A DNA stretch of 30,062 nucleotides from a virus: IMG/VR virus record IMGVR_UViG_3300030382_003059, positions 1 through 30,062 of that record. One strand, 5' to 3'. Positions 6,945 through 27,123 of the stretch are shown here, one piece after another. Positions within the stretch are counted from its first letter, which is position 1, and every line of letters begins with the position of its first letter. The translations under genes and the position numbers were made by a program. The notes below the pieces were generated by a model that saw only the letters and a program-made list of their open reading frames with translations, made no database searches and was not told where the DNA came from.

Positions 6945-6989
6945 ATTATGAACTCCTTTTCATTTGGATTAATTTACAAAACACTTTCA

Positions 6990-14066: not shown

Positions 14067-14082
14067 AGTTGCCATCATCAGC

Positions 14083-14117: not shown

Positions 14118-14229
14118 GTACACACACAGTACACACATATACACAATAGATAAACGATATAAGTGTACGTACTCATTATTATCTTATATATGTACCATTT
14201 ATTTAATAACATGGTCATAAACATTTAAT

Positions 14230-14327
14230 CAGCTTATAACTCTAGACGTAGAGTGGTCACTAGTTGGCTGGAAACTTGAATTATACTGATACTTTATCCG
14301 AAGATGAAGAGTTTTCAATATAAGCTG
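14230..14327 (+). ncRNA. Cloverleaf-like structured RNA element (gap element A)
   Basis: A 98-nt fold predicted by eye. Closing helix P1 is CAGCTTATA (14230-14238) with TATAAGCTG (14319-14327), nine perfect pairs. P2 stacks directly on it: ACTCTA (14239-14244), loop GACG, TAGAGT (14249-14254). P3 is AGTT (14262-14265) with AACT (14273-14276). The last arm is TTGAA (14276-14280) with TTCAA (14314-14318), holding an inner hairpin CTTTATC (14292-14298), loop CGAA, GATGAAG (14303-14309). P3 and this arm compete for one base. It lacks tRNA consensus bases (no T-loop, no U8-A9 linker). It ends 44 bp before the next ATG, so it could be a leader element or a separate small RNA. Confidence 0.5.
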
Positions 14328-14370
14328 AACCATCAATATTTAACAATTTAACAGTGGAAGGAGTTCAGAG

Positions 14371-14607
14371 ATGAACATAGTTACAATTACAAATAAATTG
14401 ACTGGTAAGCAAAGAAGGATGTATCATAAGGGTACGCCAGAGCAAGGAATTGATAGAATTACTGGTTATTTACAAGGAGTGTATGATGCTGGTAATAATC
14501 TTAATGATTACGATGTTGAACATAAATACCTCAATCAGAAGGGTCGCGAGACAGACTATACAGCAAGAGGTAAGAGTTCTAGAGTAATATTAGCGGAGGA
14601 AGACTAA
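14371..14607 (+). CDS. Small hypothetical early protein (78 aa)
   Basis: A 78-aa protein starting MNIVTITNKLTGKQRRMYH, basic overall, after the site GGAAGGAG. It reads as a compact alpha/beta protein (strand, K/R-rich turn, helix GIDRITGYLQGVYDAG). Its stop overlaps the next ATG (TAATG), so it opens the first run of coupled small early genes. Family unknown. Confidence 0.55.
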   Translation: MNIVTITNKLTGKQRRMYHKGTPEQGIDRITGYLQGVYDAGNNLNDYDVEHKYLNQKGRETDYTARGKSSRVILAEED

Positions 14608-14846
14608 TGGAAAATTGTGAACATGATACACATCACGATGATTGTTGCGTATGTTGGCATAAACAGGGAATGGATCAAAATTATCCCAATGATGCACCAT
14701 TATTTATGCATAAGATGGCTGCCTTACTAATGAACAAAGACTGGCGTACATATTGTTTGGAGATGGCGTTGCAAGCTGCCAAGGATAAATTTGAAAGTAA
14801 TTGGGATGGTATACCCAGTGAACTCAAAAGATTCGTAAGAGGTTGA
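14607..14846 (+). CDS. Small early protein with Cys/His-rich N terminus (79 aa)
   Basis: A 79-aa protein starting MENCEHDTHHDDCCVCWHK. Within 18 residues there are four Cys (C4, C13, C14, C16) and four His (H6, H9, H10, H18), enough to bind zinc. A helical part follows (MHKMAALLMNKDWRTYCLEM). It shares one base with the preceding gene (TAATG). One of several Cys/His mini-proteins in this early region. Role unknown; metal binding is inferred from residue spacing. Confidence 0.55.
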   Translation: MENCEHDTHHDDCCVCWHKQGMDQNYPNDAPLFMHKMAALLMNKDWRTYCLEMALQAAKDKFESNWDGIPSELKRFVRG

Positions 14847-14850
14847 TGTA

Positions 14851-15009
14851 ATGTCTAGAACAAAACATCATAAAAAGAATATGACCGACAAAGAGTGGCG
14901 TAAGCGCAGAAATAATAGAATCGCTGCCACTAGATTTAAGAACAGTGCAAAAAGGAATGAATATCCTGTACTGATAAAGCCAGAAAGATATTTGAAGGGA
15001 TGTGTATAA
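14851..15009 (+). CDS. Very small, highly basic protein (52 aa)
   Basis: A 52-aa ORF starting MSRTKHHKKNMTDKEWRKR. About a third of its residues are K, R or H, which suggests nucleic acid binding. Its TAA shares a base with the next ATG (TAATG), so it is embedded in the coupled gene run. No domain recognised. Confidence 0.5.
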   Translation: MSRTKHHKKNMTDKEWRKRRNNRIAATRFKNSAKRNEYPVLIKPERYLKGCV

Positions 15010-15200
15010 TGAAGAAAAGACCAAAACTTAAAGAGAACGAGTATTGGAGATTGGAATCACTCAACATTAAGGAAATATGTGAAAAGTATAAAGATAAGAT
15101 TTCTGAGATAATACCAGGTAAGTATCCTGTCATAGTAATGGATACCTGTCGCATTAAATATACTGGTAGAATGAGTGATTATTATGAGTGGAGTGATTAA
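15009..15200 (+). CDS. Small hypothetical early protein (63 aa)
   Basis: A 63-aa protein starting MKKRPKLKENEYWRLESLN. The ATG at 15009 overlaps the previous stop and has AGGGA 8 bases upstream; an ATG 9 bp further upstream is possible but less well placed. A lysine-rich start, a helix, then a beta-like end (YPVIVMDTCRIKYTGRMSD). Unrecognised. Confidence 0.5.
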   Translation: MKKRPKLKENEYWRLESLNIKEICEKYKDKISEIIPGKYPVIVMDTCRIKYTGRMSDYYEWSD

Positions 15201-15403
15201 TGATTGATGAAACAAAAGGTATCGAAATGTTTGAAACTTGGATTGTGGGAAGCGGCAGTGAAGGAAACAATCAAGTAATCGAATATCTGATGTTCAATGG
15301 CCATGTAATTGATTCAATGTCAAGAATATATTGGTCATTATTTGCAATAGCATTAATATTAACTTTATCAATAGCGAAGGAGAGGAAGTTATGGAATTTG
15401 TAA
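15200..15403 (+). CDS. Small early membrane protein, C-terminal anchor (67 aa)
   Basis: A 67-aa protein starting MIDETKGIEMFETWIVGSG. Residues about 43-60 (IYWSLFAIALILTLSIA) form one membrane span followed by KERKLWNL, a positive tail. The ATG overlaps the previous stop (TAATG). A small single-span membrane protein made early could act on the host envelope or in superinfection exclusion; this is inference only. Confidence 0.5.
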   Translation: MIDETKGIEMFETWIVGSGSEGNNQVIEYLMFNGHVIDSMSRIYWSLFAIALILTLSIAKERKLWNL

Positions 15404-15693
15404 AGATACTACCAAATTTAGGATTTGTAATACTTGCTGGTGTATTGGCAACAGTAGTAAATAACTGGAACTCGGTTGATTCATCAAAGATAATGATTGA
15501 GTATGAGCCAATAATAGAAGAAGAAATTGATGTGTACAGTCCAAGTGAGTATTTAATTGTTTCAGTGGAAAGATGCTCAACACTAGCTGAAGCAAAGATA
15601 TATGCTAGGGGAGTAATAGAGGATAGCACCGCAACAGGACAAAAGCAATGGTTCTTATGGCGTGGAGGATTCTATAATACTGAAACAGAATAA
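15391..15693 (+). CDS. Small early membrane-anchored protein (100 aa)
   Basis: A 100-aa protein starting MEFVKILPNLGFVILAGVL. The ATG at 15391 follows a GGAGAGGAAG site. Residues 7-23 form an N-terminal membrane anchor. The rest is a soluble alpha/beta domain (YLIVSVERCSTLAEAKIYAR, then GQKQWFLWRGGFYNTE) that would sit outside the membrane or in the cytoplasm depending on orientation. It overlaps the previous gene by 13 bp. Function unknown. Confidence 0.55.
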   Translation: MEFVKILPNLGFVILAGVLATVVNNWNSVDSSKIMIEYEPIIEEEIDVYSPSEYLIVSVERCSTLAEAKIYARGVIEDSTATGQKQWFLWRGGFYNTETE

Positions 15694-15715
15694 TTAAGTG
15701 GGGAGGAACAGTGAT

Positions 15716-16006
15716 ATGAAGACATCTTTAGAGCAAACGGTAGGAATTGCCCAAAAACAAACTATTAAGGGACAGAAAGAAGGCGGGATACCTCCACCAA
15801 TAGGAGTATTCCATGGCCCTGAATGTTTTTGTCAAGACTGTCGTAGATATATCACTGTTGAGGATGGTGAAGTGAAAGAAAAAACGAAACGAATAATAAC
15901 TGCTGATAGACATAAAACTCTTGACTGTACTGAATATATAGTTAATAAAAGAGTCAATAAGTTCAGAGATTCAGCAATGTTTATGAGAGGAGTAGAAGAT
16001 AGATGA
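15716..16006 (+). CDS. Small early protein with short Cys motif (96 aa)
   Basis: A 96-aa protein starting MKTSLEQTVGIAQKQTIKG. ATG 15716 is chosen because GGGGAGG lies 8 bases upstream; a GTG 18 bp earlier is in frame but lacks a site. A CFCQDCRRY segment near residue 39 and a later C (LDCTEY) may hold a metal. The end is basic. Not recognised. Confidence 0.5.
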   Translation: MKTSLEQTVGIAQKQTIKGQKEGGIPPPIGVFHGPECFCQDCRRYITVEDGEVKEKTKRIITADRHKTLDCTEYIVNKRVNKFRDSAMFMRGVEDR

Positions 16007-16329
16007 TTGAATCATTATTTTTAATGCTTTTCACTACATTAATCTTAGGTTTAGCATTAATTATAGCAACAGAGCTCGACAGAAAATGGAAATCAGAGTC
16101 AATATGGTTTTTCTTAACATATAAAGTATGTCCATTTAAGAGAAAATTTCAATTGGTTGAGTTAGTGTGGAGAGTTAATGCAACGTATTCAAGAAGTACA
16201 TTGTGGAGAATACCAAAGAAAGCATTAATTAAATCATTGGAGGAAGATGCAAAATTTATGGCAAAGCAAGATAGTGGTATAAAGGATGTATTTTATAAAC
16301 AATTAAACAGTGCTTGGTTCTTGAACTAA
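16003..16329 (+). CDS. Small early membrane protein, N-terminal anchor (108 aa)
   Basis: A 108-aa protein starting MIESLFLMLFTTLILGLAL. Residues 4-23 are a hydrophobic span; the following KWKSES and the basic soluble part (VCPFKRKFQLVELVWR, RRIPKKALIKSL-like stretch) would lie in the cytoplasm. It overlaps the previous gene by 4 bp. Last gene before the largest structured gap. Confidence 0.5.
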   Translation: MIESLFLMLFTTLILGLALIIATELDRKWKSESIWFFLTYKVCPFKRKFQLVELVWRVNATYSRSTLWRIPKKALIKSLEEDAKFMAKQDSGIKDVFYKQLNSAWFLN

Positions 16330-16330
16330 C

Positions 16331-16637
16331 GCAGTCCTGCTGAAAACTGATATTGTAACCTCCTCCCTTCCACAGGTGAGTAGGCAGGGCATCATTTATT
16401 AAGAAGACAAACAGCACCTATAGCGTACGCATAAATGTTGGAATAATATCGCAGGGGCACCAACTATATTGTCTTCTTGAATGGGCTGACTTCATGGTTC
16501 GCAACCTGGTACAGTACTGTATAGCTCCTATGAGGGCGTTGTCAGCTCATAAATTTAATCTTAGGATTGGAAAACAAGGGGAAGCTAAAGAGAATATTCA
16601 ATGCCCTGCTGGAAAACAATTATCTTAAGATTTAATT
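16331..16637 (+). ncRNA. Chain of structured RNA folds with possible long-range switch (gap elements B0-D)
   Basis: This is a 322-bp gap without a gene. Four closing helices are visible. B0: GTCCTGC (16334-16340) with GCAGGGC (16384-16390). B: AAGAAGACAA (16401-16410) with TTGTCTTCTT (16469-16478), ten perfect pairs, holding GTTGG (16437-16441) with CCAAC (16460-16464). C: TGGGCTGAC (16482-16490) with GTCAGCTCA (16541-16549), holding CTTCAT with ATGAGG and the hairpin GGTTCGCAACC. D: AATTTAATCTTA (16552-16563) with TAAGATTTAATT (16626-16637), one mismatch. GCAGGGCAT (16384-16392) also pairs perfectly with ATGCCCTGC (16601-16609), in competition with B0. The CCTGCTGAAAAC of B0 is repeated as CCTGCTGGAAAAC in D. 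The ribosome binding site of the next gene follows D directly. Confidence 0.5.
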
Positions 16638-16651
16638 AGAAAGGAGAAATT

Positions 16652-16810
16652 ATGATAATGGGAATGTTACCAATAGGAAATGGAGAGAAATGTCCATTTT
16701 GTGAAATGCTTATGACCAAAGATATAAGAATATTTGACCATATCTTTGCTAATCATAAGGAACAGTTAGTAGAACATTTATTTGTTAAGGAGGAAGATTT
16801 TGAAAGTTAA
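16652..16810 (+). CDS. Zinc-finger-like mini-protein (52 aa)
   Basis: A 52-aa ORF starting MIMGMLPIGNGEKCPFCEM after an AAGGAG site. C14-x2-C17 (KCPFCE) followed by D-H30 and N-H36 in IFDHIFANHKEQ gives a C2H2-like spacing, so a single zinc finger is likely. It overlaps the next ORF by 11 bp, with the next gene's AGGAGG lying inside it. DNA, RNA or protein binding is possible; no family recognised. Confidence 0.55.
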   Translation: MIMGMLPIGNGEKCPFCEMLMTKDIRIFDHIFANHKEQLVEHLFVKEEDFES

Positions 16811-17069
16811 GGGAAAAAGAATTATTAATACAGATGAAGCAGCTGAGTTTGCTAATAGCATTAGAGGACAATATATTTTATCACAAGCTCTAGTAATTGC
16901 TGTTAGACAACTGAAAAAATATGAAGATGAAGAATCTGTTTTATATAATATGGAAAATTCAGAGCCAAGTAATAGATCTGATATGGAATATTTATTAGAA
17001 GCATTTCCATTATACAGAGTACATGAAGAGGCTGCATGGTCAACACAAGAAAATAACAAGGAGGTATAA
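16800..17069 (+). CDS. Small phage protein, helical (89 aa)
   Basis: An 89-aa protein starting with TTG at 16800 (M)KVKGKRIINTDEAAEFANS. The start is set by AAGGAGG 6 bases upstream; no in-frame ATG is near. The KRIINTDEAAEFANSIRGQYI start and QALVIAVRQLKKYEDEE helix are of a type seen in many small phage early proteins of unknown function. The second half is acidic. Cytoplasmic; role unknown. Confidence 0.55.
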   Translation: MKVKGKRIINTDEAAEFANSIRGQYILSQALVIAVRQLKKYEDEESVLYNMENSEPSNRSDMEYLLEAFPLYRVHEEAAWSTQENNKEV

Positions 17070-17070
17070 T

Positions 17071-17202
17071 ATGCCACCATTATTATTATTATTTATGGCT
17101 TTATTATCAGTATATGCAGGAATTTTAATAGTTAGAGAAATACTTAGAGCGAAATGGAGGATGTACGATGATAGCAATAATAAATCATCTGACAGAAAAT
17201 AA
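17071..17202 (+). CDS. Small membrane protein (43 aa)
   Basis: A 43-aa ORF starting MPPLLLLFMALLSVYAGIL after an AAGGAGG site. Residues 3-21 form one hydrophobic span, then a basic and polar tail (VREILRAKWR). One base separates it from the preceding stop codon; it overlaps the next ORF by 35 bp. Too short for the usual gene-length cut-offs but supported by a strong site and composition. Confidence 0.5.
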   Translation: MPPLLLLFMALLSVYAGILIVREILRAKWRMYDDSNNKSSDRK

Positions 17203-17311
17203 TATTGAAAAACAGGCTCGTATAAGACAGCATTTAGTGTACAATGTAATGGATAAGTACTGTAATGAGTTCTGGATTTATAGATTATTTAAGAAATTAA
17301 AGTTAAGATGA
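17168..17311 (+). CDS. Very small helical protein (47 aa)
   Basis: A 47-aa ORF starting MIAIINHLTENNIEKQARI with GGAGG 8 bases before its ATG. It ends in a basic helix (RLFKKLKLR). Its TGA stop lies inside the closing helix of the next structured element. No domain recognised. Confidence 0.5.
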   Translation: MIAIINHLTENNIEKQARIRQHLVYNVMDKYCNEFWIYRLFKKLKLR

Positions 17312-17441
17312 GTCGATTGCACCAGTAATTACGATTAATGGGGGATAATGACCGTGCTCTTCCAGTGACTCATTATTTGAGGATAGGCATTGCCAGAGTA
17401 TAAATATGGTATGTGGTTACTTGTTATGGCTCTATCCTCAA
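17307..17441 (+). ncRNA. Tandem pair of structured RNA elements (gap elements E and F)
   Basis: Element E: GATGAGTC (17307-17314) with GACTCATT (17367-17374) closes GCAC (17319-17322) with GTGC (17354-17357), which encloses TAAT-TACG-ATTA (17326-17337), a UACG-loop hairpin. Element F: TTGAGGATAG (17377-17386) with CTATCCTCAA (17432-17441), ten perfect pairs, enclosing GCCA with TGGC. The two are separated by 2 bases and F ends 27 bp before the next ATG. Together they fill the 157-bp gap 17312-17468. The helices are unrelated in sequence to those of the other elements. Confidence 0.45.
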
Positions 17442-17468
17442 TAAATTCAAACAGAAAAGGAGAATATT

Positions 17469-17612
17469 ATGATGTGCTTAGCAGAGTTAGTGATACATTT
17501 ATTTGTATTTGCGTTATCAATGTTAATGATAGCAATTGCAGCATTTATATTATGGGTAGTATTAAGCGAACTATACAGGGAAGGAAAAAGGAAAGAACTA
17601 TGGGGCAAGTAA
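17469..17612 (+). CDS. Small membrane protein (47 aa)
   Basis: A 47-aa ORF starting MMCLAELVIHLFVFALSML after an AAAAGGAG site. Residues 5-32 are a long hydrophobic span; the tail (LYREGKRKELWGK) is basic and probably cytoplasmic. It overlaps the next gene by 13 bp. One of five small membrane proteins in this early region. Confidence 0.55.
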   Translation: MMCLAELVIHLFVFALSMLMIAIAAFILWVVLSELYREGKRKELWGK

Positions 17613-17785
17613 AAGAAATTATAGATGTTATAGAATTATATGAAAATCTTCCACAGAAGCATAAAGATTCAGTTAGTGCAGAAATGGAAGAAATAAAGAA
17701 AATTGTAGGATACAATAAAGAAACAGAACATAAAAAGGAGTCAGAACATGAAATCAAAAAGGAATCTCCACCAAATTGTAGTTGA
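17600..17785 (+). CDS. Small acidic/charged helical protein (61 aa)
   Basis: A 61-aa protein starting MGQVKEIIDVIELYENLPQ. A leading amphipathic helix is followed by a Glu/Lys-rich tail (YNKETEHKKESEHEIKKES) ending PPNCS. The ATG at 17600 has GGAAAG upstream, within the preceding gene. It overlaps the following gene by 38 bp. Unrecognised. Confidence 0.5.
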   Translation: MGQVKEIIDVIELYENLPQKHKDSVSAEMEEIKKIVGYNKETEHKKESEHEIKKESPPNCS

Positions 17786-17933
17786 AGCATTAGAATGTTA
17801 TTCATATCATGCAAATGTGGAAAGTGAATCATTTAAAAAGGTTGTAGCTGATAAAGTATATGAAGATTTCTGTAATGAATTTTATCCACCAGAACCAACA
17901 ACTGCTGACAGATATAATGAAATGGATTTCTGA
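17748..17933 (+). CDS. Small hypothetical protein (61 aa)
   Basis: A 61-aa protein starting MKSKRNLHQIVVEALECYS, with AAAAAGGAG before its ATG. One long amphipathic helix pair (ESFKKVVADKVYEDFCNEF) then a Pro-rich end (YPPEPTTADRYNEMDF). It shares one base with the next gene (TGATG). Unrecognised. Confidence 0.5.
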   Translation: MKSKRNLHQIVVEALECYSYHANVESESFKKVVADKVYEDFCNEFYPPEPTTADRYNEMDF

Positions 17934-18115
17934 TGGCAAAGGGTGGAAAAGATATTAATCCAGATTTATTTGTTAATAAGCTAACAGATGATATAAATAA
18001 AACAATAAAAAACATTGTAATTATACAGTATTCACAAATTACAGGTAAATGCCCAATGGGTCATAAATACTGTATTAAAGCAGAATGTTGGATACAGGAG
18101 GAAGATGATGAATGA
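17933..18115 (+). CDS. Small protein with Cys/His cluster (60 aa)
   Basis: A 60-aa protein starting MAKGGKDINPDLFVNKLTD. After a helical first half comes GKCPMGHKYCIKAECWIQ (residues about 38-55), with three Cys and one His that could bind zinc. It overlaps the zinc-ribbon gene that follows by 11 bp. The pairing of two adjacent Cys-motif genes is notable. Function unknown. Confidence 0.5.
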   Translation: MAKGGKDINPDLFVNKLTDDINKTIKNIVIIQYSQITGKCPMGHKYCIKAECWIQEEDDE

Positions 18116-18296
18116 TTTTAAATGTCCATATTGTGAAAAAATATATCCAACAACAATTTGTTCAAATTTTATGTCTAAAGGCGAATGGGTTTGTAAACCA
18201 TGCTATAAGACATTTGAAGTATTTGACACATATGTTGAAGATATAGATCAACAAGCATTTGCACAAGGAAGAAGGAGCAGTTATGATAACAAATAA
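18105..18296 (+). CDS. Zinc-ribbon mini-protein (63 aa)
   Basis: A 63-aa protein starting MMNDFKCPYCEKIYPTTIC. C7-x2-C10 (KCPYCE) and C31-x2-C34 (VCKPCY) are spaced as a complete zinc ribbon. AGGAGG lies just upstream of the ATG pair; either Met could start. The C-terminal half is acidic, then Gln/Ser-rich. Zinc ribbons of this size often bind nucleic acid or RNA polymerase, but no specific target is shown. Confidence 0.55.
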   Translation: MMNDFKCPYCEKIYPTTICSNFMSKGEWVCKPCYKTFEVFDTYVEDIDQQAFAQGRRSSYDNK

Positions 18297-18429
18297 TACT
18301 GATATGTTATTTAATTTAAAAGAAATAAAGGAAGCAGTCGATTTCGCAACAGGTGATGATGGATTTAGAAGTAATGAAGTTATAGAAATATTGAAACAGA
18401 CAAGAGAGGGGGATTCAAATGGCGAGTAG
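18283..18429 (+). CDS. Very small acidic protein (48 aa)
   Basis: A 48-aa ORF starting MITNNTDMLFNLKEIKEAV after an AAGGAGC site. It overlaps its neighbours by 14 and 11 bp, consistent with coupled translation. Helical, acidic (IEILKQTREGDSNGE end). No family. Confidence 0.45.
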   Translation: MITNNTDMLFNLKEIKEAVDFATGDDGFRSNEVIEILKQTREGDSNGE

Positions 18430-18661
18430 AGATTATGATTGGAGATGTAAACCAGGTTGGCCGTATAAAGGTAATGACCATCCTGAAAGAGACCCACAAT
18501 ATATAAAAGACAGAAACAAACTGTTCAGAAAAAGTGGTAATGGATGGTGGTGGGGTTGGCATCTTGAAAAACCTGATCGAAGACCAATTGATTTATGGTC
18601 TGGTAAAAGGTTTAAGATGCACCAAGGCACAATAACTGATTATGAATTAGAAGGAGAATAA
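18419..18661 (+). CDS. Trp/Arg-rich small protein (80 aa)
   Basis: An 80-aa protein starting MASRDYDWRCKPGWPYKGN. It has an unusual number of aromatic residues, with eight Trp including a WWWGW run near residue 44. It has many D/R/K residues and no membrane span. AGAGGGGG lies upstream of the ATG. Such composition suggests a compact binding protein, possibly a host-enzyme inhibitor, but this is only an impression. Unrecognised. Confidence 0.5.
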   Translation: MASRDYDWRCKPGWPYKGNDHPERDPQYIKDRNKLFRKSGNGWWWGWHLEKPDRRPIDLWSGKRFKMHQGTITDYELEGE

Positions 18662-18665
18662 AATT

Positions 18666-18845
18666 ATGTTAAAAGAAGCAAAAGAAAGCATTACACTTGA
18701 AGAACTTCAGGAATTCGAATTGGAACGGCATAAAATAATGATAAGAATTATTGATGTGTGCGAATACGGTAATCTTGATGATTTGAAAAGATTAAATCAG
18801 ATACTTATTGATAATAATTTTGCACCGTCCAGTGCAGGAGCGTGA
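18666..18845 (+). CDS. Small helical protein (59 aa)
   Basis: A 59-aa ORF starting MLKEAKESITLEELQEFEL with GAAGGAG nearby upstream. Charged helices (ERHKIMIRIIDVCEYGN; DDLKRLNQILIDNNF) and a short Pro/Ser end. It overlaps the following ORF by 14 bp. Unrecognised. Confidence 0.5.
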   Translation: MLKEAKESITLEELQEFELERHKIMIRIIDVCEYGNLDDLKRLNQILIDNNFAPSSAGA

Positions 18846-19014
18846 ATCAAAAGATATTCATCAAGTTCAGTATGAACAAATTTTAAGTTTAATAAATATA
18901 TTAACAGAAAGAATTGATATGTTAGAGAACAAACAAACAGATGAATATAAACTTGTAAATGATAGAATTAATGAAATATTTGATATAATAAAAATGATTG
19001 AAAGGAAACTGTAA
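18832..19014 (+). CDS. Small coiled-coil protein 1 (60 aa)
   Basis: A 60-aa frame starting at GTG 18832, (M)QERESKDIHQVQYEQILSL; a TTG at 18808 would add eight residues. No start has a strong ribosome binding site, so coupling to the previous gene is likely. The body is one long heptad-patterned helix (ILSLINILTERIDMLENKQ). It shares its last base with the next start (TAATG). Related in pattern to the next gene product. Confidence 0.5.
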   Translation: MQERESKDIHQVQYEQILSLINILTERIDMLENKQTDEYKLVNDRINEIFDIIKMIERKL

Positions 19015-19250
19015 TGTCAGAAGTACCAGGAGTAACATCAGAAAACGGCAGTTATGAACAAGTGTCGAAAATAATGATGATGAAAGATATCTTGAAACTT
19101 ATTAATAAAGTTGATGATATAGAACAGAAGATTATAAACCTTGAAGCAAGAGAAAGACATTCAACAAGGGAGATAATGTTAATGATTGAAACAATAACAA
19201 GTGAAATAAAGGAGCAATCAAATGCCAGCAAAAAAGAAAAATCTGTCTAA
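19014..19250 (+). CDS. Small coiled-coil protein 2 (78 aa)
   Basis: A 78-aa protein starting MSEVPGVTSENGSYEQVSK. It has a flexible start, then a heptad helix (ILKLINKVDDIEQKIINLE) matching that of the neighbour, so the two may be paralogues that pair. It ends in a Lys-rich tail (NASKKEKSV). Overlaps the next ORF by 29 bp. Function unknown. Confidence 0.5.
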   Translation: MSEVPGVTSENGSYEQVSKIMMMKDILKLINKVDDIEQKIINLEARERHSTREIMLMIETITSEIKEQSNASKKEKSV

Positions 19251-19380
19251 GAAATCTATTTATATGAGAGAATACATGAGAAAGTATAATAAGAAAAAGA
19301 AGCAGGAGAATGTATTTTGGGACAGTGTAATCTCTGGTTTTAAGAAATTCCTTGAGAGCCCATTTAAGGAGACAAAATGA
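19222..19380 (+). CDS. Very small basic protein (52 aa)
   Basis: A 52-aa ORF starting MPAKKKNLSKKSIYMREYM, with AAAGGAG 8 bases upstream. The first 29 residues are strongly basic (RKYNKKKKQ); the rest is FWDSVISGFKKFLESP. It overlaps the next gene as ATGA. Probably binds nucleic acid; unproven. Confidence 0.5.
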   Translation: MPAKKKNLSKKSIYMREYMRKYNKKKKQENVFWDSVISGFKKFLESPFKETK

Positions 19381-19607
19381 CTAAAAAGGAAAGAGTGTTA
19401 AATCACTTGAAGTCAGGTAAAAGTATAACTTCAATGGAAGCAATTACTCTGTATGGAGTTACAAGACTAGCAGCAGTAATACATACCTTAAAAACATATG
19501 AAGGTTATAATATAGAAAGTGAAAATATTAAGGGTAAAGACACTATTTACTCTAAATATAAATTGATAAAGACAGACGATAACGGACAATACAACTTTTT
19601 AACTTGA
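19377..19607 (+). CDS. Small helix-turn-helix DNA-binding protein (76 aa)
   Basis: A 76-aa protein starting MTKKERVLNHLKSGKSITS. The KERVLNHLKSGKSITSMEAI/TLYGVTRLAAVIHTL pattern is a winged-helix type helix-turn-helix found in many phages: helix 2 is ITSMEAITLYG and helix 3 is VTRLAAVIHTLK. A small beta wing follows (YNIESENIKG, then YSKYKLIKTDD). Position just before the promoter at 19604 suits a local regulator. The exact operator is unknown. Confidence 0.7.
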   Translation: MTKKERVLNHLKSGKSITSMEAITLYGVTRLAAVIHTLKTYEGYNIESENIKGKDTIYSKYKLIKTDDNGQYNFLT

Positions 19608-19632
19608 CTATAAGTTTAACAATTGTTATATT
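19604..19632 (+). promoter_or_regulatory. Sigma70-type promoter for the replication cluster
   Basis: TTGACT (19604-19609) and TATATT (19627-19632) with exactly 17 bp between them: near-consensus -35 and -10 boxes. It overlaps the stop of the helix-turn-helix gene and lies 25 bp before the ATG of the Cas4-like gene, with AAAGGAGG in between. It probably drives the recombination and replication genes using host RNA polymerase. Confidence 0.7.
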
Positions 19633-19657
19633 TATAGGAATCTAAAGGAGGAAATAT

Positions 19658-20434
19658 ATGGATTTAGAAAGCATATATTCTCAGTATTTAAACAACAAAA
19701 GTAGATTATATAAAAAGGAGAACTATCAGCCAGAACGTTTCTCAGCATCAAGTGCAGGCTCATGTCTAAAAAAACAATGGTATAGGTTTCATAATATCGA
19801 AGAATCTGATATACCAGATAAACAGGGTATGAGAAAAATGAGACTGGGTACAATAGTTCACAAGGACTTTGAAAAGGCAGTTAAGTTTTATATAGATAAA
19901 ATATACCGTGGTGATTATAATATAAAGACAGAACATGAAGTAAAACTTGAGAATTGGCCTATAACAGGACATATTGATGTTGCGATGATTCATAAAAGTG
20001 AAAACAGAGCTTGGATATGGGATTATAAAACTGCAGCAATGCACTCTTGGAAATTAACATTTGGGAGAAAAGCCAATCCATTTCATCATAGAAATTATGG
20101 TTTACAAGTAGCTACATATGCAATAGGATTATGTAATACAGAAAATACTATAGAATCTTATTTTGATATTGAAATGGGACTTATATGGTATAAAAAGGAT
20201 GATAGTTTTATGCGTGACCAGGAGGTTCCTGAACAATTTATATATGAAGCTCATGATTACTGGGATGATGCAGTGAAATTCGCAACGGAAATAGAAGACG
20301 AAACAGAAATAAAAGCAAAGTTAGATAAGGGTATACCGTTTAAAAGTTGGGAATGTAATTATTGTAATTGGAAAACAATATGTCATGAACAAATAAAAGG
20401 AACAAAAATAAAGGAGAAAGAATATGCCAGTTAA
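19658..20434 (+). CDS. Cas4/RecB-like PD-(D/E)XK nuclease (258 aa)
   Basis: This is a probable exonuclease for phage recombination or replication. The catalytic set is H68 (LGTIVHKDFE), D107 (ITGHIDVAMI) and D122-x-K124 (IWDYKTA), followed by the Q-containing LQVATYAIGL motif. One cysteine near the start (C36, GSCLKKQWY) and three near the end (C233, C236, C242; WECNYCNWKTIC) match the iron-sulfur cluster pattern of Cas4 and AddB. At 258 aa it is a normal size for a stand-alone Cas4-like nuclease. AAAGGAGG precedes the ATG. It overlaps the annealing-protein gene by 11 bp, which makes a nuclease-annealase pair analogous to Exo/Bet. No Cas1 or CRISPR array is present, so the role is not adaptation. 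Confidence 0.85.
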   Translation: MDLESIYSQYLNNKSRLYKKENYQPERFSASSAGSCLKKQWYRFHNIEESDIPDKQGMRKMRLGTIVHKDFEKAVKFYIDKIYRGDYNIKTEHEVKLENWPITGHIDVAMIHKSENRAWIWDYKTAAMHSWKLTFGRKANPFHHRNYGLQVATYAIGLCNTENTIESYFDIEMGLIWYKKDDSFMRDQEVPEQFIYEAHDYWDDAVKFATEIEDETEIKAKLDKGIPFKSWECNYCNWKTICHEQIKGTKIKEKEYAS

Positions 20435-21196: not shown

Positions 21197-21476
21197 AATA
21201 AGTCAAAAAGATACACAGGCATTAATTGATGCAGGTGCTCTTACAACCGATGAAGTTGCGAAGCTTCAAACAGAAGGACTAGTTGCATCAAGGCGTACAA
21301 GCACAAAACGCTTTATGAAAACTGGAGATAAAACTTGGGTTAGCCCTCAGTTCTATTTTCAAGGTTTAAAAGGAGCCGTCTACAGTAAAGATATGACTTC
21401 TTTGAAGACTAAAGTTGATGCCTTAATCGAAAAGATGGCAACTTCGAAACCAAGTACAACAAAGGGGAATAAATGA
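21189..21476 (+). CDS. Small hypothetical protein (95 aa)
   Basis: A 95-aa protein starting MAKISQKDTQALIDAGALT. ATG 21189 has GAAGGAG 8 bases upstream; an ATG 15 bp earlier is in frame but less suited. Helical start, basic middle (SRRTSTKRFMKTGDK), Lys-rich end. It overlaps the SSB-like gene by 4 bp. Function unknown. Confidence 0.5.
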   Translation: MAKISQKDTQALIDAGALTTDEVAKLQTEGLVASRRTSTKRFMKTGDKTWVSPQFYFQGLKGAVYSKDMTSLKTKVDALIEKMATSKPSTTKGNK

Positions 21477-21997
21477 TGAAACCAACTGGATTAGAATTAG
21501 ATTCCAGTATTCCTGACAAAGGCTCAAGGACAGTAAAACCAGGAGTCTACCCAGCTCATATTACCAATCTTAGAACACACGAATATAACGGTAGTTATGT
21601 TTTCAATACTTCAGTTAAAATTGCTGATGAAGCAAAGAAAATGAATATTGATGGACATGATGTAGGATGGATGAGTGGGAGAGAATATGTGAGTAAGGGA
21701 GTATGGTTAAATCCAAATCCAGCAGAAGGTCAAGAATGGAAAAATAAACGCTACTTAGAATGGTTTACCAACTGTGGTGCAGATTTTGAATCTGCTGATA
21801 CTAATGGTAATATTAAAGTTGGACAGGTAGAAGAAAGTGACATTCTTGGCAATCCTGTTTTTGCTAAACTTGGTAGTGCAAAATACACTGACAGAGAAGG
21901 AATAGAGAAGGAAAAGATAGAAGTTTCTGCAGTATTACCGTGGGAAGATGGAAAGCCGCTATCAGAAGACGAATTAGGTTCAGACGTACCCTTCTAA
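21473..21997 (+). CDS. SSB-like single-stranded DNA-binding protein (174 aa)
   Basis: A 174-aa protein starting MMKPTGLELDSSIPDKGSR. The middle is beta-rich (KPGVYPAHITNLRTHEYNG; FNTSVKIADEAKKM), consistent with an OB fold. The C-terminal tip (DELGSDVPF) is acidic and ends Pro-Phe, the hallmark tail by which bacterial and phage SSBs recruit partners. It follows the annealing protein and precedes the helicase, as an SSB would. The family resembles short phage ssDNA-binding proteins rather than Escherichia coli SSB. Overlap with the previous gene is ATGA. The DNA-binding face cannot be confirmed by eye. Confidence 0.6.
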   Translation: MMKPTGLELDSSIPDKGSRTVKPGVYPAHITNLRTHEYNGSYVFNTSVKIADEAKKMNIDGHDVGWMSGREYVSKGVWLNPNPAEGQEWKNKRYLEWFTNCGADFESADTNGNIKVGQVEESDILGNPVFAKLGSAKYTDREGIEKEKIEVSAVLPWEDGKPLSEDELGSDVPF

Positions 21998-22000
21998 ACT

Positions 22001-22072
22001 AGATAAACCGGAGTTTCTGTGCCGGGGTGAAGGAGTCTGGTTTATCTTATCTCTGGCTCTCTCTTTCGCCCC
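22001..22072 (+). ncRNA. H-type RNA pseudoknot (gap element G)
   Basis: P1: AGATAAACC (22001-22009) with GGTTTATCT (22039-22047), nine perfect pairs. P2: GGGGTGAAGGAG (22024-22035), inside the P1 loop, with CTCTTTCGCCCC (22061-22072), twelve pairs of which two are G-U. Connecting loops are 14, 3 and 13 nt, a textbook H-type pseudoknot geometry. It starts 3 bases after the SSB-like stop. There is no long T-run, so it is not a typical terminator. Confidence 0.55.
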
Positions 22073-22077
22073 ATTAT

Positions 22078-22180
22078 TTAAGGGACTAAAGTGCTCGTAC
22101 TAATATGCAACGGTGATTGTATATTGTGTGCTGAAACTTGTTGGAAGTGAATGGTGGGTGGAAGCTACCCTGTCCCTTAA
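22078..22180 (+). ncRNA. Structured RNA element upstream of a small gene (gap element H)
   Basis: The closing helix TTAAGGGAC (22078-22086) with GTCCCTTAA (22172-22180) has nine perfect pairs around an 85-nt interior. Inside are ACTTGTTGGAAGT and GGGTGGAAGCTACCC hairpins and a GCTGAAACTTG stretch like that of elements A and B0. The ribosome binding site AGGAG of the next gene begins 4 bases after the helix, so folding could affect its translation. Confidence 0.45.
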
Positions 22181-22193
22181 CATAGGAGAAAAC

Positions 22194-22457
22194 ATGAGTA
22201 AAAGAAAATTTCAAACAGTTACAATTAAGCTGACTAAATCAGAAGTTCAGAATTGTATAACATCATTAAGTTTAACAGAAAGTACAGTAAGAAATCTAGC
22301 AATTGGAGAATACAATACATCAGCTATATGGACAAAGTTAAATGATGATTTTAAAAGAATATTAAAAGAAATAAATGAAAGAGAAAGGGAGGAAAATATT
22401 GACACAAAAAAAGAAACGTACTATGCCCAGTCGCCAAACGATGAATATAACGATTAA
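22194..22457 (+). CDS. Small hypothetical protein (87 aa)
   Basis: An 87-aa protein starting MSKRKFQTVTIKLTKSEVQ. ATG 22194 follows AGGAG at 7 bases; the frame extends upstream through element H but that has no site. Beta-like start (VTIKLTKSEV), then helices (AIWTKLNDDFKRILKEIN) with a polar end. Overlaps the next gene by 59 bp. Unrecognised. Confidence 0.5.
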   Translation: MSKRKFQTVTIKLTKSEVQNCITSLSLTESTVRNLAIGEYNTSAIWTKLNDDFKRILKEINEREREENIDTKKETYYAQSPNDEYND

Positions 22458-22704
22458 ACGACTGGTAGAAAAAGCATTAAAAGATAAGCCAAAACATAAG
22501 CCTTCCAGTGGATATAAATTTTTAGAGAATGTTAATCCAGGTACTAAAATAATTACACATGGTAAAATGCAGAGAGCCTTAGTTTTAGAGCATACACCAA
22601 GTTCAACCACTGTAATAGTATATGATGTAGCATTTACAGACTTTAGAGATTATTACCTAGGCAAGCATAGATGGGGTGGTAAAACAGAGGTAAAAGAAAT
22701 ATGA
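22399..22704 (+). CDS. Small basic hypothetical protein (101 aa)
   Basis: A 101-aa protein started at TTG 22399, chosen because GGGAGG lies 6 bases upstream (an in-frame ATG at 22375 has no site). The first 45 residues are very basic (TQKKKRTMPSRQTMNITIK), suggesting nucleic-acid binding. The rest is beta-rich (ALVLEHTPSSTTVIVYDVA). It overlaps the next gene by 4 bp (ATGA). Function unknown. Confidence 0.5.
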   Translation: MTQKKKRTMPSRQTMNITIKRLVEKALKDKPKHKPSSGYKFLENVNPGTKIITHGKMQRALVLEHTPSSTTVIVYDVAFTDFRDYYLGKHRWGGKTEVKEI

Positions 22705-22907
22705 AAGATAAAAGTATATTTGATATTGACTTTTGGTGGGAAAGAGATGACTACTGTTCATTCTTACACTGGATGGCAGATAATAAAATAGGCGATAATG
22801 TTAATAGTGTAGAAGGTGCTCACGAAATAGTATATATAGTTGAAAAGCCTTGGAAATATCAAAGTGAATGGTATGAATTCCAAAAAGAATCGGGGAAAAC
22901 CAAATGA
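22701..22907 (+). CDS. Small acidic aromatic-rich protein (68 aa)
   Basis: A 68-aa protein starting MKDKSIFDIDFWWERDDYC. Rich in W, Y, D and E, with no cysteine cluster or membrane span. It overlaps both neighbours by 4 bp (ATGA). Acidic, aromatic proteins of this size are sometimes DNA mimics, but that is speculation. Confidence 0.5.
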   Translation: MKDKSIFDIDFWWERDDYCSFLHWMADNKIGDNVNSVEGAHEIVYIVEKPWKYQSEWYEFQKESGKTK

Positions 22908-23287
22908 TGATAGGTAAATGCCCAGTTTGTGGACATAGTTCCAGAGAAAATAGAGAACATAATAAATCAAAATCAGAATTATTGAGCAAAAGACATATTG
23001 AAGTAAGACTATCAATCAATACAGTTAGTAAATATATAAGAGATAATAGAACAAATGATAACAGCGATGAAAAAGAGATAAGATTTCTTACAAGAATTAT
23101 GGATATAAGTGATGAATATGTTTATAGATGTATTAAGAGATTTATGGGTAGAAACCTTCATTTAAAAGGATATGGTTTTGATTACCTTATTAAAATGATT
23201 AACAGCGAATCAAGAGACATTGAAAACGCTAAGAAAAATGAAAAGAAAATAATGGGTACTAACCCAATAACAGTAAAGGAGTTATAA
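22904..23287 (+). CDS. Small protein with N-terminal Cys/His motif (127 aa)
   Basis: A 127-aa protein starting MMIGKCPVCGHSSRENREH. C6-x2-C9 with H11 and H19 may form a minimal zinc-binding knuckle. The rest is helical and basic (EVRLSINTVSKYIRDNRTN; DEYVYRCIKRFMGRNLHL). It precedes the DUF932-type gene with a TAATG overlap. Nucleic acid binding is likely from charge and motif; no family recognised. Confidence 0.5.
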   Translation: MMIGKCPVCGHSSRENREHNKSKSELLSKRHIEVRLSINTVSKYIRDNRTNDNSDEKEIRFLTRIMDISDEYVYRCIKRFMGRNLHLKGYGFDYLIKMINSESRDIENAKKNEKKIMGTNPITVKEL

Positions 23288-24087
23288 TGAAAACTTACAA
23301 ACCAGACCATACATTCTTTCCTGTAACAGAGGTTCCTGCAATAGGAGTCCCTGAAGGAACAGATGATAAAGAAATAGACTCAACAGGATATAAGTTCATA
23401 GTTAGAGAAGACGACGGATCGGTTCTCAGTTGTATGACCACTGATTATAAACTTGTACAGAATAAAGATATATTTGATATTGCACAACCAATAGTAAAGG
23501 AAAAGGGTGGATTATTAACAGAAGTCAGACAATTTGGTAATGGAGCGAGAACTAAATATAAATTCACATTTCCCGATGTTGATGTTAAAATAACAAAGAA
23601 AGACCATCTAAATCCTCATATTGATATGTGGAATAGTTATGACGGAACACATCAAGTCAATATGATTGCAGGCTGTTTTAGGTTAATATGCAGTAATGGA
23701 ATGGTAATAGGACATATGATTTCTAATTACAATTTTAGACATCTTATTAGTAATAAAAATCTAAATCCAGAGAACTTTGCCAAAGCTGTTCAAAGGTCAA
23801 TAGATAAGACTCTTGATATATTTGACAAAGATTTCCCAACTCTTATTGAAACTAAGGCAAGAAAATCAGATAAAGCAAAGTTTATCAAGATGTTGCCAGA
23901 GTATGTAGGGGAAGCTGCAGTAGCTCGTATGTTAGCAGGTCATAGTATGAATACATATTGGGACTTAATAAATATAGCTACTTATTTAGCAAGTCATGTC
24001 ATGAATAGAAATTGGGAGAGCACTCACAAATGGGAATCCAAAGTATATCCAACAGTGAAATCGTGGGCTTTAAAGGCTCAAAGCTAG
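23287..24087 (+). CDS. DUF932-type phage/plasmid protein (266 aa)
   Basis: A 266-aa protein starting MKTYKPDHTFFPVTEVPAI. The signature is GCFRLICSNGMVIG (residues about 130-143) followed by the FRHL segment, as in the DUF932 family, which is spread among phages and plasmids and often encoded beside replication genes. The N-terminal 100 residues carry strand pairs (YKFIVREDDGSVLSCMTTDY). The C-terminal part is helical, ending SWALKAQS. Biochemical function is not established for the family. It overlaps the methylase gene by 58 bp at the start chosen there. Confidence 0.75.
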   Translation: MKTYKPDHTFFPVTEVPAIGVPEGTDDKEIDSTGYKFIVREDDGSVLSCMTTDYKLVQNKDIFDIAQPIVKEKGGLLTEVRQFGNGARTKYKFTFPDVDVKITKKDHLNPHIDMWNSYDGTHQVNMIAGCFRLICSNGMVIGHMISNYNFRHLISNKNLNPENFAKAVQRSIDKTLDIFDKDFPTLIETKARKSDKAKFIKMLPEYVGEAAVARMLAGHSMNTYWDLINIATYLASHVMNRNWESTHKWESKVYPTVKSWALKAQS

Positions 24088-24914
24088 ATTGTCCTACAGT
24101 AATACCTTATTGGGGTGGTAAATACGAATTAAGCAGAGTATTAGTTCCTATGATGCCGCCCCACAGGCGGTACTTTGAACCATTCGCAGGAGGTCTTAGT
24201 GTATTCTTCCGGAAGCAAAAAGCAGACGAGAATATACTAAATGACATTGATCGAGATATAATAAATTTGTATATTTGTGTATCTCAAAATCTAGAAAAAT
24301 TAACCGAAATAGCCTTTTGGTTACCTAAATCTAGAATCATATTTGAAATGGCAAAAGAGGAGTGCCGAAAGAAATTAAAAAGAAAGAAACTGCCAAACTA
24401 TCAGCGCGCCGCATTATATTACTACATGATAAAAAATGCTTTCAATAAACAAGCATTTGGCACATTTGGTATGAGCCAGAAAAGTTGGAAAATATCAATG
24501 CTAGCAGACTTAAGATTATCTAGAAAACAACTGGATGGTTCAATATTGGAAAACATGGATATATTTAAATTATTTGATAAATATTCAATTGGTAATGATG
24601 ATTTTGTTTATTTAGACCCACCTTATATGATTGCTACTAAAAGAAAAGAGTATTACCGTCATACTTTTGAAGATGACAGTCACTCCAGACTACTTGAATT
24701 ATGCAATAATATAGACTCTGAAGGTGGAAAGTTCATGTTATCCTATGATGGAGTTGATTTCATTAAACAGCTATACGAAAATTATACTGTTAACTCAATT
24801 CCAATTTATTATGCTGGCAGTTCAAAACATAAAAATAGAGTTGAACACGAAGAATTAGTAATAACTAATTATAAACCAGAAATGAACAACCAAATACCAA
24901 TATTTGAGGAGTAA
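24030..24914 (+). CDS. Dam-family adenine-N6 DNA methyltransferase (294 aa)
   Basis: It transfers a methyl group from S-adenosylmethionine to adenine in DNA. ATG 24030 gives (M)GIQSISNSEIVGFKGSK; a TTG 18 bp upstream is possible. The SAM-binding motif is YFEPFAGGLSVFF (around residues 48-60), preceded by PYWGGKYEL as in Dam. The catalytic motif is YLDPPY (around residue 194). The DIDRDIINLY and AFNKQAFGTFG segments also fit the D12 class. The C-terminal SKHKNRVEHEELVITNY is typical for the end of the fold. It most likely methylates GATC or a related site. It lies between the DUF932 and helicase genes. GATC depletion in this DNA raises the question of its true target. Confidence 0.85.
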   Translation: MGIQSISNSEIVGFKGSKLDCPTVIPYWGGKYELSRVLVPMMPPHRRYFEPFAGGLSVFFRKQKADENILNDIDRDIINLYICVSQNLEKLTEIAFWLPKSRIIFEMAKEECRKKLKRKKLPNYQRAALYYYMIKNAFNKQAFGTFGMSQKSWKISMLADLRLSRKQLDGSILENMDIFKLFDKYSIGNDDFVYLDPPYMIATKRKEYYRHTFEDDSHSRLLELCNNIDSEGGKFMLSYDGVDFIKQLYENYTVNSIPIYYAGSSKHKNRVEHEELVITNYKPEMNNQIPIFEE

Positions 24915-24916
24915 AT

Positions 24917-26281
24917 ATGGCAAAAGTAACTAATTGGGATGACATAACTGCACTGCCAACGAACATAATGGCTGAAAGTACAGTGATAGGATGTTGTCTT
25001 ATAGGTGGAAAAGATGTATATGAAAAAGCAAAAGGATGGATTAGAGAAGATAAAGCATTTTATAGTGAAGACCATAAGAAGATATGGAAAGTAATTGAAA
25101 AATTATATAAGAATAGAGAAGCAATTGACTTAGTAACAGTATCTGCTCTTGCTAAAGACGAGTATGGTAGAGAAAAGATATCAGCATACTGGTTATCTAG
25201 CTTATCAGAGGACTTACCAACAACTCAATCAATTGAAGAATACTCTAAGATTGTGTGGGAGAAATATATTCAAAGAGAAGCTGCTAAATCAGCTCAGAAA
25301 TTATATGGAGTAACTACACAAGAATTCAACAAAACATCCGAAGTATTACAAAAACATAAAGCTTTAATAAACGAATTAGAAAACTTACAACCAACAGCAG
25401 TAAAACCAATCGCTGAAATAATAGACAGGTCAGAAGAAGCAGTTTTAACTGCAGCCAATATAATTAAATTTAATAATAAAATATTAGATTCATTTGCTGG
25501 TGGAATGACCAGGAAAGAACTTACTGTAGTTGGTGGTAGACCCGGTCATGGAAAGTCTGTACTGGCAATCAATATTCTAAGAGGTTTAGTTGAGGATGGA
25601 GCTAAAGTGATGATGATTAATAGGGAAATGACCTGTGAAGAAACTTTCAAAAGAATATTTGCTATGGAAGCATACCCTGAACATCCTTCAGTTACATACA
25701 GTAAAATAAGACATTCTGATTTGACTGATGGAGAAAAACGTCACTTAGGTAAGATTATACAGAAATGTTATGGAAAATACACTGATGATAATTGCATTGT
25801 TGTTGACCATATTAGAACATTGGAAGATACTTTAATAGAAATTGGCAGACATAAGCCTGACGTTGTTATTGATGATTATATTCAATTAATAAAGGTGGCA
25901 AGTCTAAAGAATAAAGACAGACGTTTTGAAATTGAAGAAATACTTATGCAATATAAGTGGGCTTGCAAGGAACATAACTGTCATGCCATACTGGTATCTC
26001 AATTAAACAGAGAAATAGAAAAGAGATATAACCCAAGACCATTTATGAGTGATTATGCTGAGAGTGGTGTTATTGAACAAACAGCAGAATCGGCCATATT
26101 TGTATATTATCCATATACATTTAACCCTGAAGAAAATAGTAGGTTCGGTTCAGAAATCATAACTGCTAAAACGAGATATGGTAAGATTGGTAAATATGAA
26201 TGTGGATTTAATGGTAATAGATGTAAATTCTTTTACACACAAGAGGAGGCTGCTTTGGCTAGTAGTATAAATCAAGATTGA
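24917..26281 (+). CDS. Replicative DNA helicase, DnaB-like (454 aa)
   Basis: This would be the hexameric helicase that opens the replication fork. The N-terminal domain (MAESTVIGCCLIGGKDVYE, then AKDEYGREKISAYWLSSLSE) resembles the DnaB primase-interacting domain. Walker A is GGRPGHGKS (around residues 206-214). Walker B is VVIDDYIQL (around residue 314). The KEHNCHAILVSQLNREIE segment and DYAESGVIEQTAE fit the DnaB arginine finger and motif region. Its length (454 aa) is typical. It follows the methylase by 2 bp and its TGA overlaps the TTG of the next gene. No primase gene is seen, so it may rely on host primase. Confidence 0.9.
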   Translation: MAKVTNWDDITALPTNIMAESTVIGCCLIGGKDVYEKAKGWIREDKAFYSEDHKKIWKVIEKLYKNREAIDLVTVSALAKDEYGREKISAYWLSSLSEDLPTTQSIEEYSKIVWEKYIQREAAKSAQKLYGVTTQEFNKTSEVLQKHKALINELENLQPTAVKPIAEIIDRSEEAVLTAANIIKFNNKILDSFAGGMTRKELTVVGGRPGHGKSVLAINILRGLVEDGAKVMMINREMTCEETFKRIFAMEAYPEHPSVTYSKIRHSDLTDGEKRHLGKIIQKCYGKYTDDNCIVVDHIRTLEDTLIEIGRHKPDVVIDDYIQLIKVASLKNKDRRFEIEEILMQYKWACKEHNCHAILVSQLNREIEKRYNPRPFMSDYAESGVIEQTAESAIFVYYPYTFNPEENSRFGSEIITAKTRYGKIGKYECGFNGNRCKFFYTQEEAALASSINQD

Positions 26282-26775
26282 AGAGATTATACGCAGGGAT
26301 TGACCCAGGATTCAATGGGGCAATTGCAATGTACAGAGAAGATATCAATGCCTGGAGGGTAATGAACTGTCCAAAAACCATACCTGAAATATCAGACATT
26401 GTTATGATTATGAGGGAAGTTATTAAAGATGGTTACTTCGAACCAGTCGTTGCAATTGAAAGAGTATGGGCTCAACCTAACAATGCAGTAAGGTCAGCAT
26501 TTAAATTTGGTACAAACTACGGAGCTTGGATAGCTGCCTTATCATTTGCTGGCATCCCATATATAGAAGTATTACCAGCTAAATGGCAGAAGGAATATAA
26601 ACTGCCAAAAGATAAACCATCAAGAAAAAGACAACTAAGAGATAATGCTTCCAAAATTGTAAAACAAACAGAGGAAGAATCAAAGACAAGAATAACACTA
26701 AAAAATGCCGATGCAATAATGATATGCACATGGCTTAAAAACGGAGGATATAATGACGAGAGCAATAGGAAGTGA
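26278..26775 (+). CDS. RuvC-like Holliday-junction resolvase (165 aa)
   Basis: A 165-aa protein started at TTG 26278 (M)KRLYAGIDPGFNGAIAMYR, overlapping the helicase stop as TTGA. The acidic catalytic set of the RuvC/RNase H fold is visible: D9 (AGIDPG), E61 (VVAIERVWAQP) and D145 (LKNADAIMIC). The middle Pro-rich AKWQKEYKLPKDKPSRK would bind DNA. It cuts branched recombination or replication intermediates so that DNA can be packaged. It is similar in size to phage RuvC proteins. Confidence 0.85.
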   Translation: MKRLYAGIDPGFNGAIAMYREDINAWRVMNCPKTIPEISDIVMIMREVIKDGYFEPVVAIERVWAQPNNAVRSAFKFGTNYGAWIAALSFAGIPYIEVLPAKWQKEYKLPKDKPSRKRQLRDNASKIVKQTEEESKTRITLKNADAIMICTWLKNGGYNDESNRK

Positions 26776-26971
26776 ACATTTAGGAGCAGCTTATTTTAAA
26801 AAGGATTGGGTAGAAACAGGAACTATATCGTTATTCCCATTCAAATTTACAGTAAGTCTATTCCGTGCAGATAAATTCTTATCATTGGCATTGACTATAT
26901 ATAAACTGGAAGTATCATTAAGGTTTAGTTTTGACTCCTGGGTTAATGGGGTTAATAACAACAGTATATAA
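26753..26971 (+). CDS. Small hypothetical protein closing the early unit (72 aa)
   Basis: A 72-aa protein starting MTRAIGSEHLGAAYFKKDW after a strong GGAGG site 6 bases upstream. Hydrophobic and aromatic strands (TISLFPFKFTVSLFRADKF, then LEVSLRFSFDSWVNG) suggest a small beta protein. It overlaps the resolvase by 23 bp. Last plus-strand gene before the convergent region. Not recognised. Confidence 0.55.
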   Translation: MTRAIGSEHLGAAYFKKDWVETGTISLFPFKFTVSLFRADKFLSLALTIYKLEVSLRFSFDSWVNGVNNNSI

Positions 26972-26988
26972 GAAACGATACAGACTAG

Positions 26989-27115
26989 AGATTTATAAGT
27001 CCTACCTTAACTGACAAGTGTTGAGTATCCGTGAGGACTCAAGGGTATCTAAACAACACCTCAATAGCACTTAAATAGTTATTAAGGCATCTCCCTCTAA
27101 GCGGCACCTAAATCT
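26989..27115 (+). ncRNA. Nested structured RNA element in the 3' gap (gap element I)
   Basis: P1: AGATTTA (26989-26995) with TAAATCT (27109-27115). P2: CCTTAA (27005-27010) with TTAAGG (27082-27087). P3: GTGTT (27018-27022) with AACAC (27055-27059). Inside is a hairpin with GAGT (27023-27026), a bulged AT, CC, loop GTGA, GG, and ACTC (27037-27040). The GTGA loop is a GNRA tetraloop. It lies in the early transcript's 3' untranslated region, so it may be a processing or stability element. Confidence 0.4.
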
Positions 27116-27123
27116 TATATACA

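Follow-up and report, generated by a model that had tools for sequence, protein, structure and literature searches.

Gaps between the early genes of an uncultured virus, IMG/VR record IMGVR_UViG_3300030382_003059, contain elements that are real, structured, and function at the RNA level on the transcribed strand. We studied positions 1 to 30,062 of this 51,136-base record (the window, 30,062 nucleotides (nt)) together with its relatives, and the lineage to which they belong is widespread and marine. The elements form several mutually unrelated families, which are apparently undescribed and confined to this one phage lineage. They have conserved cores and sense-strand RNA structure, are present in some relatives and absent from others, and occur in differing slots. 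Phage genomes typically carry little non-coding DNA. The reading we consider best, and hold with about even confidence, is that the gaps are slots for fast-turnover structured RNA cassettes that work as separate RNAs.

An earlier note on this DNA had placed elements closed by a helix (P1) in five early gaps and named comparison with shuffled sequence as a check. Four of these gaps (14067-14370, 16330-16651, 17312-17468, and 21998-22193) do hold such elements; the fifth (26972-27136) holds only the insertion I, with a folding z of ~0. Taken together, the inverted repeats of the five gaps exceed all 300 dinucleotide shuffles: the summed score of non-overlapping closing helices is 207 vs 86 ± 24 (maximum 150), and seven helices score at least 21, vs a shuffled mean of 0.96 and a maximum of 4. 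Across 78 loci from relatives (L numbers below), early co-directional gaps carry 1.87 elements per kb, compared with 0.33 in mononucleotide-shuffled sequence and 0.33 in coding sequence, which is a ~5.6-fold enrichment. A terminase-centred set gave 2.26 elements per kb in early gaps vs 0.47 in late gaps. Four cultured control phages had 8 helices in 12.5 kb of nominal gaps, several of them inside missed genes, which makes this a weak control. The elements in the window, and the gene that precedes two of them, are as follows.

A, 14229..14328, + strand: multi-hairpin RNA with a 10-bp closing helix, helix score 23, folding z -4.2.
B0, 16334..16390, + strand: 7-bp helix with conserved UGAAA, CCUCCUC, and GAGUAG inside.
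B, 16399..16480, + strand: 12-bp helix, folding z -2.9.
C, 16481..16550, + strand: 10-bp helix enclosing three small hairpins.
D, 16557..16632, + strand: 11-bp helix with one G.U, ending ~20 nt upstream of the ATG at 16652.
E, 17308..17373, + strand: 7-bp P1 that overlaps the preceding gene's stop codon, with an inner GCAC/GUGC helix.
F, 17377..17441, + strand: 11-bp P1, 5' bulge YAUU, invariant GCC(A)/UGGC helix, 3' bulge UUA, and variable distal hairpin; folding z -2.9.
Putative SSB-like gene, 21473..21997, + strand: 174 aa, preceding G and H; synteny marker of its downstream slot.
G, 22001..22072, + strand: H-type pseudoknot, 12+12 bp, 3 nt past the SSB-like gene.
H, 22078..22180, + strand: 9-bp helix with a 3' hairpin GGYGG-NNN-CURCC; folding z -4.0.
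I, 26974..27113, + strand: insertion ending the early operon; structure unsupported.

Folding energy is significant for A, H, B, and F. For B0, C, D, E, and G, the folding z alone is not significant, and their support comes from between-genome comparison. That I, and C and D taken singly, are not significant by folding is what chance inverted repeats in AT-rich sequence would predict; as a source of the whole set, chance is scarcely credible, being contradicted by the shuffle excess, the early-gap enrichment, the covariation of F and H, and a core-only scan for F (below).

Selection acts on one strand. When a strict closing helix is broken by a single non-Watson-Crick pair, read on the transcribed strand, that pair was G.U 13 times and A.C never in a first locus set, and G.U 19 times and A.C never in a second (pooled 32:0; the sets consist of different contigs, whose lineages partly overlap). 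Base composition predicts roughly equal counts of the two, so a strand-symmetric DNA function is refuted. Elements are also in excess on the sense strand (237 vs 92), and closing helices change by compensatory pairs between genomes. DNA-level elements that mimic RNA, such as palindromes resembling miniature inverted-repeat transposable elements, origins, or recombination sites, would fit the clean presence/absence of the elements and the ATTTAA found on both flanks of A, but the G.U bias and the sense-strand excess need one-strand RNA selection, and we consider this explanation very improbable.

By sequence comparison, F is an RNA family with a conserved core and a covarying helix in independent phages. 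Its core reads [GG]YAKUGCC(R)...UAUGGC[UC], and the G.U atop P1 is invariant. A descriptor search of 4.5 Mb recovered 8 members vs 0.67 expected; in their MAFFT alignment all cells pair, four P1 pairs are double-changed, and 0/500 shuffles reach the covariation score. In an alignment of 15 phages, which was fitted to the model and agrees with the MAFFT alignment of 8, 100% of cells are paired and 14 are double-changed, a result again reached by 0/500 shuffles. An independent test searched 2.9 million viral contigs with a pattern limited to the letters of the core and gave 17 matches. Thirteen of them have a further 6-10 bp of P1 and adjoining genes of the lineage (terminase identity down to 27%), and the other four have a P1 of 0-5 bp and no lineage genes. 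The slot after the SSB-like gene holds F in L030, L132, L141, L205, L206, and L219; F has other positions in the window, L180, L207, and L191, and in L204 and L212 it is close to the terminase region. A riboswitch of one gene was considered and rejected, since F occurs in different slots upstream of unrelated genes. Separately, an F-like element with a partly changed core (E 2e-6) was seen at L197:3577-3633, on a contig binned in a Flavobacteriales metagenome-assembled genome (MAG) from Saanich Inlet; this is probably a phage contig of the lineage studied here.

H and B0 covary as well. Across five phages, 94% of the cells of H are paired and six pairs are double-changed (reached by 0/500 shuffles), and the B0 homologues in L003 and L039 have 100% of cells paired with double-sided change at 4/7 pairs, although these are only three sequences. 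The L003 homologue of B has two double-sided compensatory pairs, yet two broken pairs. E changes in L003 by one compensatory and one broken P1 pair, and its pseudoknot (17340-17345 with 17358-17363) by one compensatory pair, from GGGGGA/UCUUCC to AGGGGA/UCUCUU. C and D are the weakest-supported of the accepted elements, each conserved in one relative with one-sided changes only: in L003, C keeps 9/10 pairs, and D keeps every pair with one G.U turned into A-U. A coding origin for C and D was rejected, as the 44-aa open reading frame at 16494-16628 is interrupted by an internal stop in L003 and is no gene. The L057 copy of A is identical and gives no covariation information. No closing helix of I passed the shuffle test, and its folding z is -0.4 on the + strand and +0.2 on the - strand. 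Descriptor and nhmmer searches recovered no distant homologues of A, C, D, E, or I.

G pairs 22001-22012 with 22036-22047 (P1) and 22024-22035 with 22061-22072 (P2). Among three close genomes, the paired fraction of cells is 98.6%, with only two double changes, a level that 54/500 shuffles equal and that is not significant alone. G is supported mainly because pseudoknots recur downstream of SSB-like homologues: the 85 homologues of this gene give 59 distinct downstream regions, and 32% of these regions contain a pseudoknot scoring at least 42, vs 0% of shuffles. A similar order, P1a-P2a(GGGYG)-P1b-P2b, is seen in L006, L030, L071, L106, L189, L190, and L192. The loop lengths of the window copy differ from those of the pseudoknots of distant phages, and homology to these is likely but not certain.

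These comparisons bear on the proposal of the earlier note that the elements are one dispersed, covarying family of RNA with a common architecture, unrelated helix sequences, and a GCTGRAAAC-like core shared by A, B0, D, and H. Structured, covarying RNA in the early gaps is borne out by F, H, and B0, and the helix sequences are indeed unrelated. The elements are nonetheless not one family, because their inner architectures differ too, and the covariance model of F matches only F within the window at E <= 10. The proposed core has 16 matches with at most one mismatch, vs 11 ± 3 expected; where it sits in the structure differs among A, B0, and D, and the copy in H lies in a stretch absent from the L003 homologue. 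A new RNA family was a fair guess; the comparisons give several families in place of one, with no Rfam match. That the elements always lie beside runs of tiny genes was too strong a statement, as G and H follow a gene of 174 aa.

The elements of the relatives comprise ~200 distinct inner sequences. One recurrent family, K, has the pattern UCCACAACUAC...GACUCCGCAUC with the core CTCCGCA/CCACAACTA; 10/10 pattern matches have an 11-12 bp helix, and 9/10 lie beside lineage genes. Further recurrent cores are GGTTGGC hairpins, TACCTCG, and a hairpin like the T-arm of tRNA (L030, L143). GTTGGC is found in 19 inner sequences vs 2.2 expected, and TCCGCA in 12 vs 1.0. The slot behind the SSB-like gene holds different families in most relatives. 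DnaA boxes were rejected as an explanation, since TTATCCACA is carried by some, but not consistently by all, loops in the CCACAACTA group; the elements of L031, L068, L185, and L190 have TATCCACAACTAC loops that are DnaA box-like in some copies and not in all. Searches with Rfam 15 returned a single chance match far under threshold in the window (E <= 5), only a tRNA in eight relatives, and sub-threshold chance matches when focused on F, H, K, and gaps 2-3. Neither ARAGORN nor RF00005 detected a tRNA in the window.

Elements come and go with clean boundaries. A is missing in G002/L028, where window position 14228 joins 14346 with clean flanks and the other 117 bases are gone. L003 lacks F (17373-17449), and both L003 and L004 lack I, all with neat flanks. 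In L005, the site of I (1774-1854) is occupied by a tRNA-Tyr (GTA) gene, which L003 and L004 do not have either. L039 is without B, C, and D and retains B0, G, and H. Elements are also tightly packed: adjacent ones are at most 20 nt apart in 37/69 cases, arrays reach 3-4 elements per gap, and the spacings in B0-B-C-D are 8, 0, and 6 nt. We also observed, at L030:6671-6865, a tRNA-Met gene followed by a 14-bp-closed element with a perfect T-arm-like hairpin, GAGGTTCGAATCCTC, which is not a tRNA; an element in the L143 gap 6979-7371 resembles it.

We propose that each gap would be a slot for structured RNA cassettes of ~50-160 nt that are co-transcribed with the early genes. In each cassette, a closing helix, mostly of 9-16 bp, would lock a conserved core, and the cassettes would stand in tight tandem and be gained, lost, and moved between slots, like phage tRNA genes. 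The closing helices may free the cassettes from the early transcript or protect them within it. RNAs that work as units are favoured because the cores are independent of neighbouring genes, slots are exchanged, one slot is shared with a tRNA, and the packing is tandem. We infer that they would act in trans on factors of the host or of rivals; RNA mimicry, decoy action, and antisense pairing are the most plausible modes.

The earlier note had offered RNase III-type processing sites, as in T7 early mRNA, in which the closing helix would be cut or would block exonucleases and so give early mRNAs defined ends. Such cis-acting processing or stability elements would suit the location of all elements in the polycistronic early region, their near-perfect closing helices, and the way they abut stop codons and Shine-Dalgarno sequences (E covers a stop codon). 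Classical RNase III double cuts want longer helices, of about 20 bp; P1 has a median of 12 bp (5-95% range 10-16) and reaches 20 bp in only 2/266 cases. A plain double-stranded RNA site also needs no conserved core with invariant bases and bulges, and arrays of 3-4 elements per gap exceed the needs of processing. The short P1 and the conservation of the cores across phages make classical sites less likely, and processing as the whole explanation is unsupported. RNase III also has irregular, shorter substrates, so the short P1 only lowers the probability of this alternative, which we regard as rather unlikely; separate-RNA action is more likely than mRNA-processing sites and is not proven. A scan for intrinsic terminators, GC-rich hairpins with a T run behind them, listed none on the + strand of the five gaps.

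Other cis regulators could be polymerase-modifying antiterminators like putRNA of phage HK022, sites bound by phage or host proteins, or loops that pair with Shine-Dalgarno sequences and tune the next gene. The putRNA is a ~70-nt folded RNA of an early transcript (PMC9378689), G stays beside the SSB-like gene, and the anti-Shine-Dalgarno-like TCCTT is enriched in the inner sequences (32 vs 13 ± 3 in shuffles). Against such regulators, the elements are spread over the operon and even reach its end, their families are unmatched to the downstream genes, and one function served by many unrelated folds would be unexpected; we consider them distinctly unlikely.

Several observations weigh against separate, mobile RNAs. 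G keeps one position across 25-36% protein identity, behaviour not required of a trans-acting cassette that is purely mobile, and many elements have a stop codon immediately on one side and a Shine-Dalgarno sequence on the other, which fits cis roles too. A cross-phage family is still lacking for most of the ~200 elements, which leaves a common function unproven, and a fraction of the ~200 are chance helices (0.33 per kb expected). We advance only tentatively a broader proposition, in which dedicated genomic slots of this one lineage would house a large and quickly exchanged set of RNA effectors that act in trans. Such a set would parallel, in RNA, the accessory or anti-defence islands of protein genes in other phages, and would include dozens of RNA classes unknown elsewhere.

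The window consists of divergent gene blocks, a late one on the - strand encoding terminase, portal, and head proteins, and an early one on the + strand encoding a Cas4-like exonuclease, a DnaB helicase, and a RuvC-like resolvase. The product of 21473..21997 is putatively SSB-like, as judged from its C-terminal DVPF tip alone, and Pfam and PHROG searches with it gave no match. No close cultured phage was found (best identity of the terminase, TerL, <=26%), and uncultured relatives are plentiful, with >370 viral contigs for each of the terminase and exonuclease queries. Gap boundaries in the relatives are approximate, as the simple gene caller used there overlooks tiny genes. Host links were limited to MAG contigs of three different phyla/classes, with no consistent host. 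The divergent region between the late and early blocks (window 13296-13778) has CCCCCTATCGGGGG, which recurs in L028, L037, L057, and L097 and is perhaps a bidirectional control element. A late-side gap (window 3434-3552, - strand) holds a closed element with an 11-bp helix, GGAGGCC...GGCCTCC, and an inner CTAGG/CCTAG hairpin. The 111-kb contig IMGVR_UViG_3300030329_001359 (loci L068 and L079) has two different terminase genes ~60 kb apart, which suggests an assembly joining two related phages or an unusual genome.

The early gaps of a widespread marine lineage are filled with structured RNAs that match no known family. If these work in trans, phages possess a so far unmapped RNA toolset for host takeover or defence evasion; if they act in cis, they represent a new way to organise polycistronic mRNA. 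In either case the families offer direct probes, with conserved cores to express, mutate, and use as bait. No known kind that was tested shares all its defining features with the set; should the function prove to be a prosaic cis one, the set would be less novel. Searches of the open-access literature gave no description of such phage RNA arrays, which does not prove their absence from the literature.

Phage tRNA genes and arrays are likewise small stable-RNA cassettes in early intergenic slots that vary among relatives, and tRNA genes occur at the I site of L005 and beside the L030 element. The elements, however, are not tRNAs (ARAGORN and Rfam were negative) and their folds are varied, with only one family having a T-arm-like hairpin. 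T7-type RNase III sites are also helical elements between early genes, whereas the elements described here are closed by short helices, keep their cores conserved, stand in tandem, and form families shared between phages. The RNA pseudoknots of type III toxin-antitoxin systems are ~36-nt tandem direct repeats next to a toxin gene; G is also an H-type pseudoknot, but it is single-copy and adjoins an SSB-like gene. RNA anti-CRISPRs (Racrs), like the elements, are small RNAs that phages encode at accessory positions (PMC10651486). Unlike Racrs, which are solitary CRISPR repeat copies, the elements contain no recognised CRISPR-repeat-like sequence, although no CRISPR-repeat library was searched. 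Racrs and the putRNA of HK022 are examples of phages employing small RNAs, against defence or in early regions; as far as tested, the elements fit the definition of neither. The size of the elements fits that of HK022 putRNA, a ~70-nt folded RNA of a phage early transcript (PMC9378689), but put consists of two stem-loops near early promoters, whereas here many unrelated folds are distributed operon-wide.

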